A stretch of 64,000 nt of DNA from Streptacidiphilus carbonis (GTDB lineage Bacteria; Actinomycetota; Actinomycetes; Streptomycetales; Streptomycetaceae): contig NZ_BBPM01000005.1 of NCBI RefSeq assembly GCF_000787775.1, positions 1 to 64,000 on the forward strand. Reading direction: 5' to 3'. Positions 28,092 through 34,829 of the stretch are shown piece after piece (position 1 is the stretch's first letter; each line of letters starts with the position of its first letter). A model generated the notes under the pieces. That model ran no database searches, had not been told where the DNA came from, and saw only the letters and a program-made list of their open reading frames with translations. The position numbers were made by a program, and so were the translations under genes.

Positions 28092-28616
28092 TCAGGCCGC
28101 TCGGTTGTGGTGGATGTGCAGGGGTGCCGGGGCGTTCTGCACCGCGAGCTCGTCTCGCTGCTGCTCCGGGGTGAGCTCGACGCCGATGTGGTAGGTCTGG
28201 ACGAGCATCCAGCCGAGGAACCCGGCGCCGATCGTGCACACGACGCCCGCTGCGGCGAGACCCAACCCCAACGCGGCACCGCGCGGCGGCCCGTTCCAGT
28301 GCCCGGCGTAGAACCCGAGGCTGATCGCGAACAGGGCCAGCGCGACGACGTTGAGACCCGCGTGCGCGAGCCCGACCGTCTTGGCCGCGGACGAGCGCGG
28401 GATCCCGAGCAACCAGTCGGCGAAGCCGGGAAGCGCCGCCAACAGCGCGCCCCCGACGCCGGCGATATTCATCACGATCGCGAAGTTCAGCCAGAACTGC
28501 TGACCGTTCGCGGCGTACACCGCGAAACCCACCAACGTGCCGGTGTAACCCGCCACGGGGTAGCCGATCAGCATCGGATGGACCGGATGGCCCCCAAGCG
28601 TGACCTTGCTGTACAT
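28092..28616 (-). CDS. DUF2231 membrane protein
   Basis: A 174-residue membrane protein with four helices. It opens YSKVTLGGHPVHPMLIGYPV, where the GHPVHPMLIGYP motif defines DUF2231, and GLAHAGLNVVALALFAISLG forms a later helix. The C-terminus ends in a His-containing tail (LHIHHNRAA). Relatives occur beside heme, cytochrome or stress genes, but no activity is known. The ATG at 28616 has GGAGG eight bases upstream. The flanking spacers, 27869-28091 and 28617-28886, show nothing recognisable. Confidence 0.85.
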   Translation of the reverse strand: MYSKVTLGGHPVHPMLIGYPVAGYTGTLVGFAVYAANGQQFWLNFAIVMNIAGVGGALLAALPGFADWLLGIPRSSAAKTVGLAHAGLNVVALALFAISLGFYAGHWNGPPRGAALGLGLAAAGVVCTIGAGFLGWMLVQTYHIGVELTPEQQRDELAVQNAPAPLHIHHNRAA

Positions 28617-28886
28617 GGCAACCTCCGTTCGGAGACTTCCTCAAGCGTCCAACCGCCCACAGCACCACGCAACCGGACCCCATCAGCGCCGCCGGCATCG
28701 CGTGCCGGTCACCCGGACAACGACGGGCGGCCTACAGCCCGCCGCCCCCGGTGACCAGCACCACCAGCGTCCGCCGGCCCCCTCGACGCAGCCGCAGCGC
28801 CGCCGCACGGCGAGTACTACGCGGTGGTCGCCTGGCCGGTCGGAGTCGAAGGGCAACAATGAGTTGCTGAGGCCCGCTGAGCTGAG

Positions 28887-29540
28887 TCACTCGTCGGCGG
28901 GCTCGTACTCGCCCGTGACCAGGTAGACGACGCGCCTGGCGACGGAGACGGCGTGGTCGGCGAACCGTTCGTAGAAGCGTCCGGCCAGGGTGACGTCGAC
29001 GGCGGCTTCGACGCTGTGGGGCCAGCGGTCGTCCAGCAGGCGGCGGAAGAGGGCGCGGTGCAGGTCGTCCATGGCGTCGTCGTCGCCCTCCAGTTCCAGG
29101 GCCGCGCCGATGTCGCGGGTGGCGATGACGTCGGCGGCCTTGGCCATCAGGCGCTGCGCGACGTGTCCCATCTCCAGCACCGTGGCGCGCAGTTCGCTCG
29201 GCACCGCGTCGTCGGGGTAGCGGCGCCGTGCCAGTTTGGCCACGTTCACGGCCAGGTCGCCGGAGCGCTCCAGGTCGGCGCTGATCCGCAGCGCGGTCAC
29301 CGCGGCGCGGAGTTCGGTGGCAACCGGCTGCTGGCGGGCCAGGACCGCGATGGTGCGGTCCTCGAGGTCGCGCTGCAACTGGTCGAGCTTTTCGTCAGAG
29401 GCGATGACGCGTTCGGCGAGTTGCAGGTCGGGATCCAGCAGTGCGGTCGTGGCGCGGCCGATCGCCGAGTCGGCGAGTCTCGCCATCCGTTCCAGCCCGT
29501 CGGTGATCGCTGCGAGCTCTTCGCGGTACGCGTCGCGCAT
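28887..29540 (-). CDS. phoU: PhoU, phosphate-signalling regulator
   Basis: A 217-residue, all-helical protein made of two three-helix PhoU bundles. The metal-binding repeats are LRISADLERSGDLAVNVAKL in the first bundle and VTLAGRFYERFADHAVSVAR in the second. The family's start (RDAYREELAAITDGLERMA) is intact. PhoU modulates the PhoR-PhoP system and Pst transport. In streptomycetes phoU usually sits opposite phoR-phoP, but here no phoR/phoP flanks it, so this may be an additional copy. GGAGAG precedes the ATG. Confidence 0.92.
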   Translation of the reverse strand: MRDAYREELAAITDGLERMARLADSAIGRATTALLDPDLQLAERVIASDEKLDQLQRDLEDRTIAVLARQQPVATELRAAVTALRISADLERSGDLAVNVAKLARRRYPDDAVPSELRATVLEMGHVAQRLMAKAADVIATRDIGAALELEGDDDAMDDLHRALFRRLLDDRWPHSVEAAVDVTLAGRFYERFADHAVSVARRVVYLVTGEYEPADE

Positions 29541-29906: not shown

Positions 29907-30725
29907 TCACTTCGCGGGGTGCCGTGCGCGCTGCATGTCCACCCGCGTGCCTCGCATCGGTGTCCCCTCGGCCCGCAGAAGCTCAGGCGCCCTCCCGCCG
30001 TGGCAGGAGGCGGGCGTGCCGTCGCCATGGACCACGCGCCACCAGGGGACGCCGTCATCGAGCTGACCCATCGCCCCTCCCACCTGCCGCGGCCCCGCTG
30101 AGATCCGCTCGCCGATGTCGCCGTAGGACGCGACGCACCCGGCGGGGATTGCCAGGACCTGCTCGCGGACCTCCTCGACCAGGCCCATGCCCGCCCCCTG
30201 GGACTGAGCCGGGTAGACGAGGTGCCCGTCCTGCACCTCGGCGTGCTCGTTCAGCACCGCAGGCGTGACCCTGGTGGGCGAGAGGATGTGCGAGACCTGG
30301 CGGCCCGCGACGAGCAGCGCATCAGCGATGAGCCTGCGGTGGCAGCGCCACGGCACCGCCTCGCTGCACATGATCACGGGGCGCCCTTCGTCGGCGAGTG
30401 CCAGGAGTTCGGCGAGGCCGGCGGCGAAGTCGGGGGTGGCCATGTAGTCGGCGTAGTCACGGAACGCCTTCACCCTCCAGGCTCCGTTCACGCTCGGCAC
30501 GTCCTTGGGGGTGTGCCGGCGGCCGCCCAGTTGCGCGATCCACCGGTAGCCGACGTCTCCGGGAAGCGCGTCGATGACGGCCTGCTGGTTCCACTGCGGA
30601 TACTTCCTCGACGAGGGGAACGAGCGGACGTCGACCAGGTGCGTGATCCCGTTGGCGCGCAGCAGGGCCAGTGCGTCGTCGAAGTCGCGTGTCGAGTGCC
30701 CCACCGTGAAGATGCGGTCGTCCAT
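29907..30725 (-). CDS. DUF488 domain fused to an alkyltransferase-like (ATL) domain
   Basis: A 272-residue two-domain protein. Residues 1-165 are DUF488: IFTVGHSTRDFDDALALLRA, VDVRSFPSSRKYPQWN, FRDYADYMATPDF and CSEAVPWRCHRRLIADALL. Residues about 180-270 match the DNA-binding domain of O6-alkylguanine alkyltransferases: REQVLAIPAGCVASYGDIGE, GPRQVGGAM and VPWWRVVHGDG. The transferase motif PCHR is replaced by PWWR, so the acceptor cysteine is missing, as in ATL proteins that bind alkyl-guanine and flag it for nucleotide excision repair. The DUF488 role is unknown. The junction is an uninterrupted reading frame. Confidence 0.85.
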   Translation of the reverse strand: MDDRIFTVGHSTRDFDDALALLRANGITHLVDVRSFPSSRKYPQWNQQAVIDALPGDVGYRWIAQLGGRRHTPKDVPSVNGAWRVKAFRDYADYMATPDFAAGLAELLALADEGRPVIMCSEAVPWRCHRRLIADALLVAGRQVSHILSPTRVTPAVLNEHAEVQDGHLVYPAQSQGAGMGLVEEVREQVLAIPAGCVASYGDIGERISAGPRQVGGAMGQLDDGVPWWRVVHGDGTPASCHGGRAPELLRAEGTPMRGTRVDMQRARHPAK

Positions 30726-30778: not shown

Positions 30779-30997
30779 CTAGCCGCTCCTCGGGATCTTC
30801 GTCAGCGCCCCGCCCTTGTGAAGGGCGATGTGGTCACTCTTGTCGCTCTTGATCTCGTACTGCGGGTCGTCCTCGGTGCAGTGGTGCACATGGCCCTTCC
30901 AGTCCACGTCGCGGGTGTGCTTCTTGACGATGACGCCCTGAACGGATCCGGCTTCGGAGTTCCACCGGACATGGTCGCCCACCGAGAATCGTGTCAC
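30779..30997 (-). CDS. DUF2945 (small Tudor-like) protein
   Basis: A 72-residue protein that is essentially one DUF2945 domain: FSVGDHVRWNSEAGSVQGVI, then VKKHTRDVDWKGHVHHCTED, DPQYEIKSDKSDHIALHKG and the terminal AL-KI. The GTG start has GAGGGAC upstream. It lies 53 bp upstream of the DUF488-ATL gene on the same strand and is probably co-transcribed. The function is unknown. Confidence 0.85.
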   Translation of the reverse strand: MTRFSVGDHVRWNSEAGSVQGVIVKKHTRDVDWKGHVHHCTEDDPQYEIKSDKSDHIALHKGGALTKIPRSG

Positions 30998-32336: not shown

Positions 32337-34829
32337 GTGGAGCTTCGGGACTACCAGGTCGAACCGGTGTCGGATGTCATCCGGGAGTTGACGCTGCAAC
32401 CTGGCCGAGCCATGCCGCCGGACGGACTGCGGGCCCAGCTCATCGCCTCCCCCGGGACGGGGAAGACGATGATGGCGGCGTTCGTGGGCATGCGGATCGC
32501 GCCCAGGCATCCCGTTCTGGTGGAGGTGCCGACGCTCGATCTGCTGGGCCAGACGATCGAGACCTGGCGCGCCGCGGGGCGGGGTGGGCGAATGTACGCG
32601 GTGTGCTCCATGGCGGACCACGAGCCCGCCGCCGGGGTACTGTGCACCACCAGCTCCGAGCGGCTGGCCTACTGGCTCTCCCAGGTCCCGGACGGGGAGC
32701 CGGTGACGGTCTTCGGGACCTACGCCAGCCTGCCCACCGTCCTCGGAGTCCACAGCGGCGACTTCACCCCCTACGGCATCGCCCCGGCCCGGCCCTGGGC
32801 GCTGGTGGTCGTCGACGAGGCCCACAGGACCAGCGGCGCGGCGTCGAAGCCGTGGGCGGCGGTGCACGACAACCGGGCGCTGCCCGCTGTGGCCCGGCTC
32901 TACATGACCGCCACGCCGCGGGTGTGGAACGTCCCGCAGACCCTGGACACCGGCTCGGTGAGCGAGGAGCCGGAGCCTGGCTCCGCGTTGCGGGCGCTGC
33001 CCAGGGAACTGGCGATGTCCATGGACGACGAGGCCGTGTTCGGGAAGGTGGCGAACAGGTCGCTGACCCTGGCGCGCTGCCAGGACCTCGGGATCCTGGC
33101 GCGGTTTCAGCTCGTGGCCCTGGAGATCGCGGACCCGGTCCTGCACGCCATGCTGGAGGGCGACCAGGACTCGGCAGCCGAGGCGCGGCTGGCCGCTGTG
33201 CAGGTGGCGGTCCTGAAGGCCGTCGAGAGCCAGGGCCTGCAGAAGGTCATCACGTTCCACAACCGCATCGCCGAGGCGCAGGTCTTCGCTTCCACTCTTG
33301 CGAGCCGCGTCCACACCGACGACGGTCTTCGAGAAGCGTTCCCCCACGGGGTCTGGGCGCACTGGCTGTCCGGGGAGCACACGGGCCGTCACCGCCGCCG
33401 GGTGCTGGACGAGTTCGACCACGACCGGCCCGGCGGCCTGGAGCGTCCCGCCGTGCTGGCCAACAGCAAGGTCCTCACCGAGGGACTGGACACCCGGTCG
33501 GACTGCGTGGTGTTCACCAGTTCCAAGGGCAGCCTGGTCGACCTGATCCAGGCCATCGGCCGCGCCCTGCGCCAGCAGCCCGGTGCGGGCAAGGTCGCCT
33601 CCATCCTGGTGCCCACCGTCGTGGCCAGGGCCGCGACGGACTCGATCGAGCACGCCGCCACCACCAGCGACCTGCTGGCGGACCCCGGATTCGCGCCCCT
33701 GTTCGACATCCTCCAGGGGCTGCGCGCCTACGACAGCGCCCTCATCGAAGGCCTCGCCGTACCCCAACGACGCTCACGCACCCAGCAGGCCGACCCCTGG
33801 CGCGAGGACGACCAACCGGACCAGGAGCAGCCCGACAAAGCCGGGGAGGCGGGGCCGGCGGCGCCCCGCCTGGTGCTGGAGTTCGCCGGCGGCCTCCACT
33901 CGGCCGCCGAGGTGGCAGCCGCGATCCGGCTGCGGGTACTCAGCCCCGAGGCCCAGAGCTGGCTGCGGGGCTACGCGGCGGCCCGGCACTGGCACGCCAT
34001 CCATGGCAACCTCGCGGTCCCGACCAACGCCACCGAGCCCGGATCGGACTTTCCACTGGGCCGGTGGGTCACCTCCCAGCGGGCCGCCTACGCGGCCGAC
34101 GAACTGCTGCCCTCACGGGTGGAACGGCTCAACGACCTGGACATGCTGTGGTCCGCGCACGAGGCGGCATGGGACGCCGGCCTGGCCGCCGCCCGCGGCT
34201 ACGCCGCCACCCATGCCGCGGGTCTGGCCTGCCCCACAGCCGCACTGTTCGACGGGCACAAGGTGGGCCGGTGGCTCGCCGAACAGCGGGCCGCCGCCGG
34301 CGCCGGGACCCTGACCCAGGCACGGACCGCGCAACTGGAGGGCATCGACCCCTGGTGGAACCCGCCCTGGCCCATCCCCTGGCAGCGCAGCTTCCGCATC
34401 GCCCTGGCCCACGTCGAGAACGGCGGCACCCTCGCCGACCTCCTGGACATGCCCGAAGGCACGAAAATGTCCGGCGAGGACATCGGCACCTGGGCCCGGC
34501 AGCAGACGGCCCAGTGGCACCAGCTCCAGGAGCAGCGCCAGGAAATGCTCGGCTGGATCGGCTACACCGCGCCGGAGCAGCCCGTGGCGCCGACGGCGGC
34601 CCCGCGCAGCCAGACCGACCGGTTCAACGCCGCACTGGCGGCAGCCACTGCCTGGGCAGCCGAGCACGGCGGCACCATCGCCGATGTGAAGCGCAAGGAC
34701 GTGCAGCCCATGCCCGACACCGAGAAGCCCCTCGCCCTAGGGGTGTGGATCATGAACATGAGACAACGGGCTGTCAAGCTCAGCACCGAGCAGCGCGCCG
34801 CCCTGGACGCCCTCGGCATGCGCTGGTGA
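32337..34829 (+). CDS. SF2 (DEAD/DEAH) helicase with C-terminal helicase-associated repeats
   Basis: An 830-residue helicase. Motor motifs are Q-like MELRDYQVEPV, Walker A SPGTGKT (about 38-44), DEAH in VVVDEAHRTSG (about 160), TATPR (about 192), then domain 2 with KVITFHNRI, LANSKVLTEGLD and the arginine-finger motif QAIGRALRQ. After about residue 540 it carries several helicase-associated (HA, PF03457-like) repeats, each with a W--------A-----G-L-VP pattern (for example YAAARHWHAIHGNLAVPTNA). Such helicases are common as single genes in actinomycete accessory and terminal regions; the substrate is unknown. A GTG start and a terminator hairpin after the stop define a single-gene unit. Confidence 0.9.
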   Translation: MELRDYQVEPVSDVIRELTLQPGRAMPPDGLRAQLIASPGTGKTMMAAFVGMRIAPRHPVLVEVPTLDLLGQTIETWRAAGRGGRMYAVCSMADHEPAAGVLCTTSSERLAYWLSQVPDGEPVTVFGTYASLPTVLGVHSGDFTPYGIAPARPWALVVVDEAHRTSGAASKPWAAVHDNRALPAVARLYMTATPRVWNVPQTLDTGSVSEEPEPGSALRALPRELAMSMDDEAVFGKVANRSLTLARCQDLGILARFQLVALEIADPVLHAMLEGDQDSAAEARLAAVQVAVLKAVESQGLQKVITFHNRIAEAQVFASTLASRVHTDDGLREAFPHGVWAHWLSGEHTGRHRRRVLDEFDHDRPGGLERPAVLANSKVLTEGLDTRSDCVVFTSSKGSLVDLIQAIGRALRQQPGAGKVASILVPTVVARAATDSIEHAATTSDLLADPGFAPLFDILQGLRAYDSALIEGLAVPQRRSRTQQADPWREDDQPDQEQPDKAGEAGPAAPRLVLEFAGGLHSAAEVAAAIRLRVLSPEAQSWLRGYAAARHWHAIHGNLAVPTNATEPGSDFPLGRWVTSQRAAYAADELLPSRVERLNDLDMLWSAHEAAWDAGLAAARGYAATHAAGLACPTAALFDGHKVGRWLAEQRAAAGAGTLTQARTAQLEGIDPWWNPPWPIPWQRSFRIALAHVENGGTLADLLDMPEGTKMSGEDIGTWARQQTAQWHQLQEQRQEMLGWIGYTAPEQPVAPTAAPRSQTDRFNAALAAATAWAAEHGGTIADVKRKDVQPMPDTEKPLALGVWIMNMRQRAVKLSTEQRAALDALGMRW

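Follow-up and report, generated by a model that had tools for sequence, protein, structure and literature searches.

A fusion of DUF488 to an alkyltransferase-like domain in Streptacidiphilus carbonis and the recurrent pairing of the two families

Introduction

Known alkyltransferase-like proteins (ATLs) act by recruiting UvrA/UvrC, and roles have been assigned to the base-flipping Tyr, the Arg finger and the Trp of Atl1 (PMC10779285, accessible portion). Fusions of such domains have also been described, the archaeal ATL-endonuclease V and AGT-endonuclease V proteins being the known precedent (PMC10779285, same portion). For DUF488 (PF04343), neither a structure nor an assay nor an assigned function was found in the open-licence literature or the PDB. 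The domain is common among bacteria and archaea, with members in 6 of 14 control genomes, E. coli included. An archaeal ParB-DUF488-HTH protein binds CTP, as stated in the accessible part of PMC12704722, and DUF488 also occurs in PMC9674854, PMC7143476 and PMC9487903, the available text of the last giving no relevant use. DUF2945, a third family considered below, has been renamed Hva1_TUDOR (PMC6324024, accessible part).

The protein described here is encoded on the minus strand of a 64,000-nucleotide stretch of DNA from the soil actinobacterium S. carbonis (contig NZ_BBPM01000005.1, positions 1 to 64,000; the window). It consists of 272 residues with an ATG start and has two domains (Table 1). 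Like Atl1, the Vibrio parahaemolyticus ATL and the E. coli ATL, its C-terminal half combines the same fold, as predicted, with a helix-turn-helix bearing Tyr and an Arg finger, and with a Trp for the acceptor Cys. It differs from all three in the attached DUF488, in a second Trp (Trp229) that also replaces the His, as is usual in actinobacteria, and in an invariant Cys-His in the following loop. As in the archaeal endonuclease V fusions, a base-flipping AGT/ATL domain is joined to a second domain with a possible action on the lesion, but here that domain is DUF488 and the host is bacterial. The N-terminal half matches the DUF488 family over its full length and keeps every invariant residue, the C-terminal ATL domain being what sets it apart. 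Since ATL fusions were already known, the novelty lies in DUF488 as the partner; no mention of it as a companion of ATLs or alkyltransferases was found in the open-licence literature.

Architecture and distribution of the fusion

The first-pass annotation, made from the letters of the window, had proposed that DUF488 is fused here to an ATL-like domain, and this is borne out by two Pfam domains that both score above cut-off in one ORF. The fusion is not an assembly accident, because two other genomes encode the same 272-residue protein (88% and 85% identity). It is nonetheless rare, with full-length matches in 3 of 394 Streptomycetaceae genomes, the other carriers being Streptomyces sp. NRRL B-24484 and Streptacidiphilus pinicola, and in 2 of 14 genomes of the genus Streptacidiphilus. 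Samples of the class (394 genomes) and the phylum (396), which partly overlap, contained it in S. carbonis only; the survey scored the best candidates per genome, so that distant fusions could be missed.

Table 1. Features of the fusion locus in the window, followed by loci in which DUF488 lies with a UDG-superfamily gene.
Feature	Position	Strand	Basis
DUF488-ATL fusion gene	29907..30725	-	ORF and two Pfam domains; architecture and length identical in two other genomes
DUF488 domain, residues 1-172	30210..30725	-	Pfam, 69 aligned relatives, AF2 of the domain alone
PF04343 match, residues 17-137	30315-30677	-	Pfam, E 2.7e-28, 99.5 bits, cut-off 22.2
DUF488 signature M-C-S-E-A-V-P-W-R-C-H-R, Cys120 to Arg130	30336..30368	-	69-sequence alignment
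Linker, residues 173-182	30180..30209	-	Low pLDDT at 177-179; not conserved
ATL domain, residues 183-268	29922..30179	-	Pfam, profile and structure matches
PF01035 (DNA_binding_1) match, residues 184-254			Pfam, E 1.1e-13, 51.2 bits, cut-off 27
Tyr201 (= Atl1 Tyr25) to Arg213 (arginine finger, = Atl1 Arg39)	30087..30125	-	Atl1 alignment
Trp228-Trp229 codons, place of catalytic Cys-His	30039..30044	-	Alignments
Cys241-His242 codons, loop after the Trp-Trp motif	30000..30005	-	Invariant in 16/16 linked ATLs
DUF2945 / Hva1_TUDOR gene, 72 aa, GTG start	30779..30997	-	PF11160, E 5.2e-17; 53 bp upstream, same direction
DUF488 and UDG, Paraburkholderia	L211:3483-4703		
DUF488 and UDG, Sphingobium	L209:3355-4546		
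DUF488 and UDG, Agrobacterium	NZ_CP129670.1 68528-69654		
DUF488 and UDG, Rhodococcus	L177:6650-8956		

In the DUF488 tree, the fusions from the three genomes group as a single clade (SH-aLRT 99). Purifying selection acts on each half, with a dN/dS over the three pairs of 0.18-0.25 for DUF488 and 0.18-0.22 for the ATL; the linker, at just 10 codons, has a ratio above 1 in every pair.

The S. carbonis genome also encodes four alkyltransferases with the PCHR motif and one other ATL. Direct reversal is already covered by the former, and the fusion is therefore not the replacement alkyltransferase; it probably handles lesions or situations that these enzymes and the second ATL do not. The latter, a canonical standalone protein encoded on contig 41, is ~47% identical to the fusion's ATL and shares the WWR motif, but the two fall into separate clades and have different neighbours. 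The canonical ATL gene adjoins a pair of UvrD-type helicase genes, of which one also encodes a PD-(D/E)XK nuclease domain (L062:1608-9122), an arrangement that we take to resemble AdnAB.

The alkyltransferase-like domain

Profile and predicted structure both support the earlier reading of the C-terminal half as ATL-like. Searched with a profile built from 16 relatives, the PDB gives S. pombe Atl1 as the first match (E 9.7e-15) and the V. parahaemolyticus ATL as the second (E 3.3e-11), all true alkyltransferases ranking below. The AlphaFold2 model of the fusion has a mean pLDDT of 86.9 and a pTM of 0.64, with the ATL half mostly at pLDDT 78-92, and was built from a 15-row alignment in which only three rows cover that half. 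In a Foldseek search with this model, the three highest-ranking PDB entries are all structures of these two ATLs (E 2.3e-4 to 4e-4). The ATL half of the model superposes on Atl1 with Z 12.5 (2.1 Å over 88 residues, 31% identity), so that the fold on which the first-pass annotation had staked its reading is indeed returned by the predicted model; a S. solfataricus alkyltransferase is tied with Atl1 as a structural match (Z 12.3).

Tyr201, Arg213 and Trp228 align with Tyr25, Arg39 and Trp56 of Atl1, and these positions are invariant in all 16 DUF488-linked ATLs. Atl1 Arg69, which contacts the flipped base, falls on a gap in the profile alignment and has no counterpart there. Trp228-Trp229, within the motif VPWWRVV (residues 226-232), align with the catalytic Cys-His of the alkyltransferases. 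Assignment to the O6-alkylguanine-DNA alkyltransferases (AGT/Ogt) is ruled out by PWWR in place of PCHR, the NCBIfam ogt model giving 20.5 bits against a cut-off of 46.4, and by homology the domain would lack transferase activity. The first-pass annotation had taken PWWR for a hallmark of ATLs: Trp-Trp does replace Cys-His, but the motif adds nothing specific, as it is ordinary among actinobacterial ATLs (17 of 20 canonical proteins, against two with AWWR and one with PWHR). The classical form of the motif in ATLs is PWHR; in actinobacteria, PWWR is common.

The loop that follows is another matter. Cys241-His242 is invariant in the 16 linked ATLs, whereas the canonical ones vary, with Cys in 5 of 20, and the alkyltransferases of the S. 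carbonis genome have residues such as Tyr-Ala or Tyr-Ser at this place. On the broadest proposal given below, the pair might contribute to a shared pocket. By analogy with Atl1, lesion binding of the ATL type by the C-terminal half is likely. Binding of O6-alkylguanine, and the recruitment of excision repair that the first-pass annotation attached to ATLs, are carried over from Atl1 and the E. coli ATL (PMC10779285, accessible portion), and the domain of the fusion may share them.

The DUF488 domain

Sixteen positions are invariant among 69 aligned diverse DUF488s, including Gly9-His10, Asp32, Arg34, Gly68, Arg70, Cys120, Glu122 and Trp126-x-Cys128-His129-Arg130. The signature from Cys120 to Arg130 likely forms an active site together with the first six of these residues. 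Modelled alone, the domain reaches pLDDT 90.5 and pTM 0.87 (AF2) and shows a Rossmann-like sheet, in which the signature loop is predicted to sit between strand 116-120 and helix 130-139. A sequence search of the PDB gave no match, and neither did Foldseek with the model at E ≤0.001. The best superpositions, at Z up to 9.4, were with subdomains of class III methyltransferases; dual-specificity phosphatases reached Z ~7.6. The methyltransferase match extends over DUF488 residues 1-150 only and concerns the N-terminal subdomain of the class III (tetrapyrrole-type) SAM methyltransferases (Z 9.4, 3.2 Å, 11% identity), and none of the 69 members has a class III methyltransferase Pfam match. Membership of DUF488 in the methyltransferases or phosphatases was not adopted, since middling Z-scores are common, and the superpositions are read as a Rossmann-like arrangement. 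The 'active' subclade model DUF488-N3a (PF22751) scores 19.9 bits, below its cut-off of 27. Judged by its residues, DUF488 is probably an enzyme; chemistry is favoured over docking because of the invariant positions.

Pairing of DUF488 with ATLs outside the fusion

The pairing extends beyond the fused genes. In Streptomycetaceae, 22 loci were taken from genomes with a DUF488 at least 62% identical, and an ATL gene is adjacent in six of them, two being fusions. In the four unfused pairs, the stop codon of DUF488 abuts or overlaps the start codon of the ATL gene (TGATG, GTGA, GTGA and ATGA). Two loci (L046 and L060) have DUF2945 directly before the ATL with DUF488 not adjoining, although in one a DUF488 lies ~3 kb off on the opposite strand. 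Six further loci from this family carry a more distant DUF488 clade, with an ATL or DUF2945 alongside in none of the six. Plasmids provide additional cases: DUF2945, DUF488 and ATL are consecutive genes in Rhodococcus opacus, and in Arthrobacter DUF488 shares 4 bp with the ATL gene, topoisomerase IB, Ku and an ATP-dependent ligase being encoded nearby.

Elsewhere in the class, 74 DUF488 loci include four with an ATL within 3 kb, three of these ATLs downstream on the same strand and one convergent; the binomial tail is 8e-5, given a rough, assumed background of 0.003 per locus. DUF488 is without an ATL in 16 of the 22 family loci and in 70 of the 74 others. In the three same-strand pairs, DUF488 comes from another clade (family f26), distant from that of the fusion, and the ATLs fall on the side of the canonical proteins in the ATL tree, in which the fusion's ATL belongs to a 12-row clade with 100/98 support. 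Since the clades differ for both partners, DUF488 and ATL came together on at least two occasions, the number of origins not being fixed by these short-domain trees. This recurrence strengthens the case that DUF488 is concerned with damaged bases; a functional connection of the fusion's DUF488 clade with base damage is somewhat favoured. The suggestion of the first-pass annotation that the fusion hints at a function for DUF488 holds to the extent that independent pairings occur elsewhere, but it applies to particular subclades, since the neighbourhoods of DUF488 overall do not mark it as a repair family.

The DUF2945 partner

DUF2945, which had been named as the partner gene of the fusion, is indeed a conserved partner. 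It is adjacent to DUF488 in 11 of the 22 Streptomycetaceae loci and in 10 of the 74 loci from the rest of the class, and it accompanies DUF488 on plasmids as well. In annotated regions centred on DUF488, it lies within three genes in 8 of 18, and the fusion's DUF488 belongs to the DUF2945-linked subclade of the tree. DUF2945 and DUF488 overlap by 4 bp on Burkholderia and Sulfitobacter plasmids (L075:4765-5564 and L073:4792-5546), from which it follows that this pair is older than the link to ATLs. The viral collections contained 12 DUF488 loci, two of which, on IMG/VR contigs (L184:3780-4504 and L187:1425-2149), have an adjoining DUF2945/TUDOR gene. ATL profiles found no confirmed relative in the viral collections, and phage records gave a single weak match, to an ATL alone.

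Other lesion-reading proteins near DUF488

Genes for other readers of damaged bases also lie close to DUF488. A UDG-superfamily gene immediately adjoins it in Sphingobium, Paraburkholderia and, as judged by coordinates, Agrobacterium; the three UDG-superfamily genes tested match PF03167 at E 1e-20 or better. Those of the loci in Table 1 resemble UdgX and family 4 models only weakly. On Rhodococcus plasmids, one carbonic anhydrase gene separates DUF488 from UDG, and the ATL lies on the other side of UDG; in one further Rhodococcus plasmid case, UDG is one gene from DUF488 without a nearby ATL. An Acidithiobacillus plasmid (L207:3959-6977) has consecutive genes for DUF488, a carboxymuconolactone decarboxylase family protein and an AlkA-type glycosylase, with DUF2945 close by. 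At least 17 plasmid records contain both UDG and DUF488, counted in a sample made up of the best 60 of 136, 60 of 92 and 40 of 106 records. The two genes are no more than ~3 kb apart in 11, which amount to ~four lineages as eight are Rhodococcus, and 5 kb to more than 100 kb apart in the remaining six. A binomial calculation for UDG (3/16, background 0.004) is given no weight, the background being assumed and the regions hand-chosen.

An ATL, UDG or AlkA gene lies within three genes of DUF488 in 6 of 18 annotated regions centred on it and in none of the other 12; the R. opacus and Arthrobacter regions had been chosen for matching both halves, and without them the count is 4 of 16. Among the 146 immediate neighbours at the 74 DUF488 loci, Hva1_TUDOR occurs eight times and the other families are scattered, at no more than four each. 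This tally came from a crude gene caller, with two neighbours missing at contig ends and at least one ATL mis-called (L091). No base-repair family is among the best 25 of its 133 Pfam families, UDG, HhH-GPD and PF01035 being absent there, and given this result no claim is made for DUF488 in general as a repair gene. In ORF clustering of ~10 kb around 26 loci and the window, DUF488, TUDOR and ATL alone were common to many.

Proposed mechanism and alternatives

The observed architecture, conservation, ATL fold match and recurrent pairing suggest a model in which the C-terminal ATL domain would scan DNA and use Tyr201 and Arg213 to flip an alkylated base, O6-alkylguanine or one like it, into a pocket that Trp228 closes. 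The domain could not dealkylate the flipped base, its acceptor Cys being a Trp. It may call UvrA like Atl1 and the E. coli ATL, or DUF488 may act instead or in addition. The N-terminal DUF488, Rossmann-like and, with its invariant His/Asp/Arg/Cys/Glu/Cys-His-Arg residues, probably an enzyme, would then be the protein's own effector, acting in a way that we can only guess at or beside the marked lesion. The TUDOR-like protein encoded upstream would probably be the third member, perhaps as an adaptor that binds DNA or protein, and relatives would employ the same parts as separate, co-translated proteins. Delivery of DUF488 to alkylated bases by the ATL is proposed because it is the simplest account of the fusion, the translational overlap and the repeated pairing, and we give the model as a whole about an even chance.

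The ATL could instead mark the lesion while DUF488 and TUDOR dock nucleotide excision repair or another machine, with no chemistry on the part of DUF488. Such a role would be in keeping with the recruitment of UvrA/UvrC by known ATLs (PMC10779285, accessible portion), and the middling matches of DUF488 to solved enzymes (Z up to 9.4) leave room for it, as fold does not prove an enzyme. Sixteen invariant, catalytic-flavoured positions across 69 DUF488s, however, exceed the needs of a docking surface, and Pfam's own name for a neighbouring subclade is 'Active DUF488-N3'; pure docking is thus unlikely. A reading that keeps the chemistry but takes it off the DNA has DUF488 disposing of damaged free bases, nucleosides or nucleotides, or of an alkylating metabolite, with an ATL companion that binds the same modified guanine, so that the link would be shared damage chemistry. 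The partners of DUF488 (ATL, UDG superfamily and AlkA) do read different lesions, the common products being free damaged bases or abasic sites, and DUF488 is also found far from their genes, but it is fused directly to a domain of the base-flipping type in which Tyr and the Arg finger are conserved; this favours DNA and makes the reading quite improbable.

It is similarly doubtful that DUF2945, DUF488 and ATL are merely co-expressed in a general stress cassette, the fusion being a harmless read-through without joint mechanism. The neighbours would suit a cassette of that kind (catalase, PhoU, DUF2231, topoisomerase IB, ligase and Ku), and the fusion is rare and could result from a single small change, as the paired genes overlap by few bases. 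Yet the fused gene has lasted in two genera, its halves both under purifying selection, and elsewhere another clade of DUF488 has paired with another clade of ATL. Under the favoured model of an ATL that brings DUF488 to the lesion, the fusion and the recurrent pairing with a domain of known ligand point to a concrete substrate class for DUF488; if correct, ATLs would gain a partner outside nucleotide excision repair and a large DUF a function. A broader proposal, that DUF488 (or at least its DUF2945-linked clade) is a new base-lesion effector enzyme serving ATL, UDG-superfamily and AlkA readers, and the fusion, with reader and effector on a single chain, an excision-independent route of O6-alkylguanine repair or signalling, is put forward as a long shot.

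Further genes around the locus

Genes for DUF2231 and PhoU lie near the fusion (window 28092-29540), and both families also occur near a related ATL on the Rhodococcus plasmid pRZP2 (L178:4156-10313). The clustering of ~10 kb neighbourhoods gave two more ORF clusters, in five and four loci. Downstream on the opposite strand, the window encodes an 830-residue helicase with four helicase-associated (HA) repeats (32337-34829).
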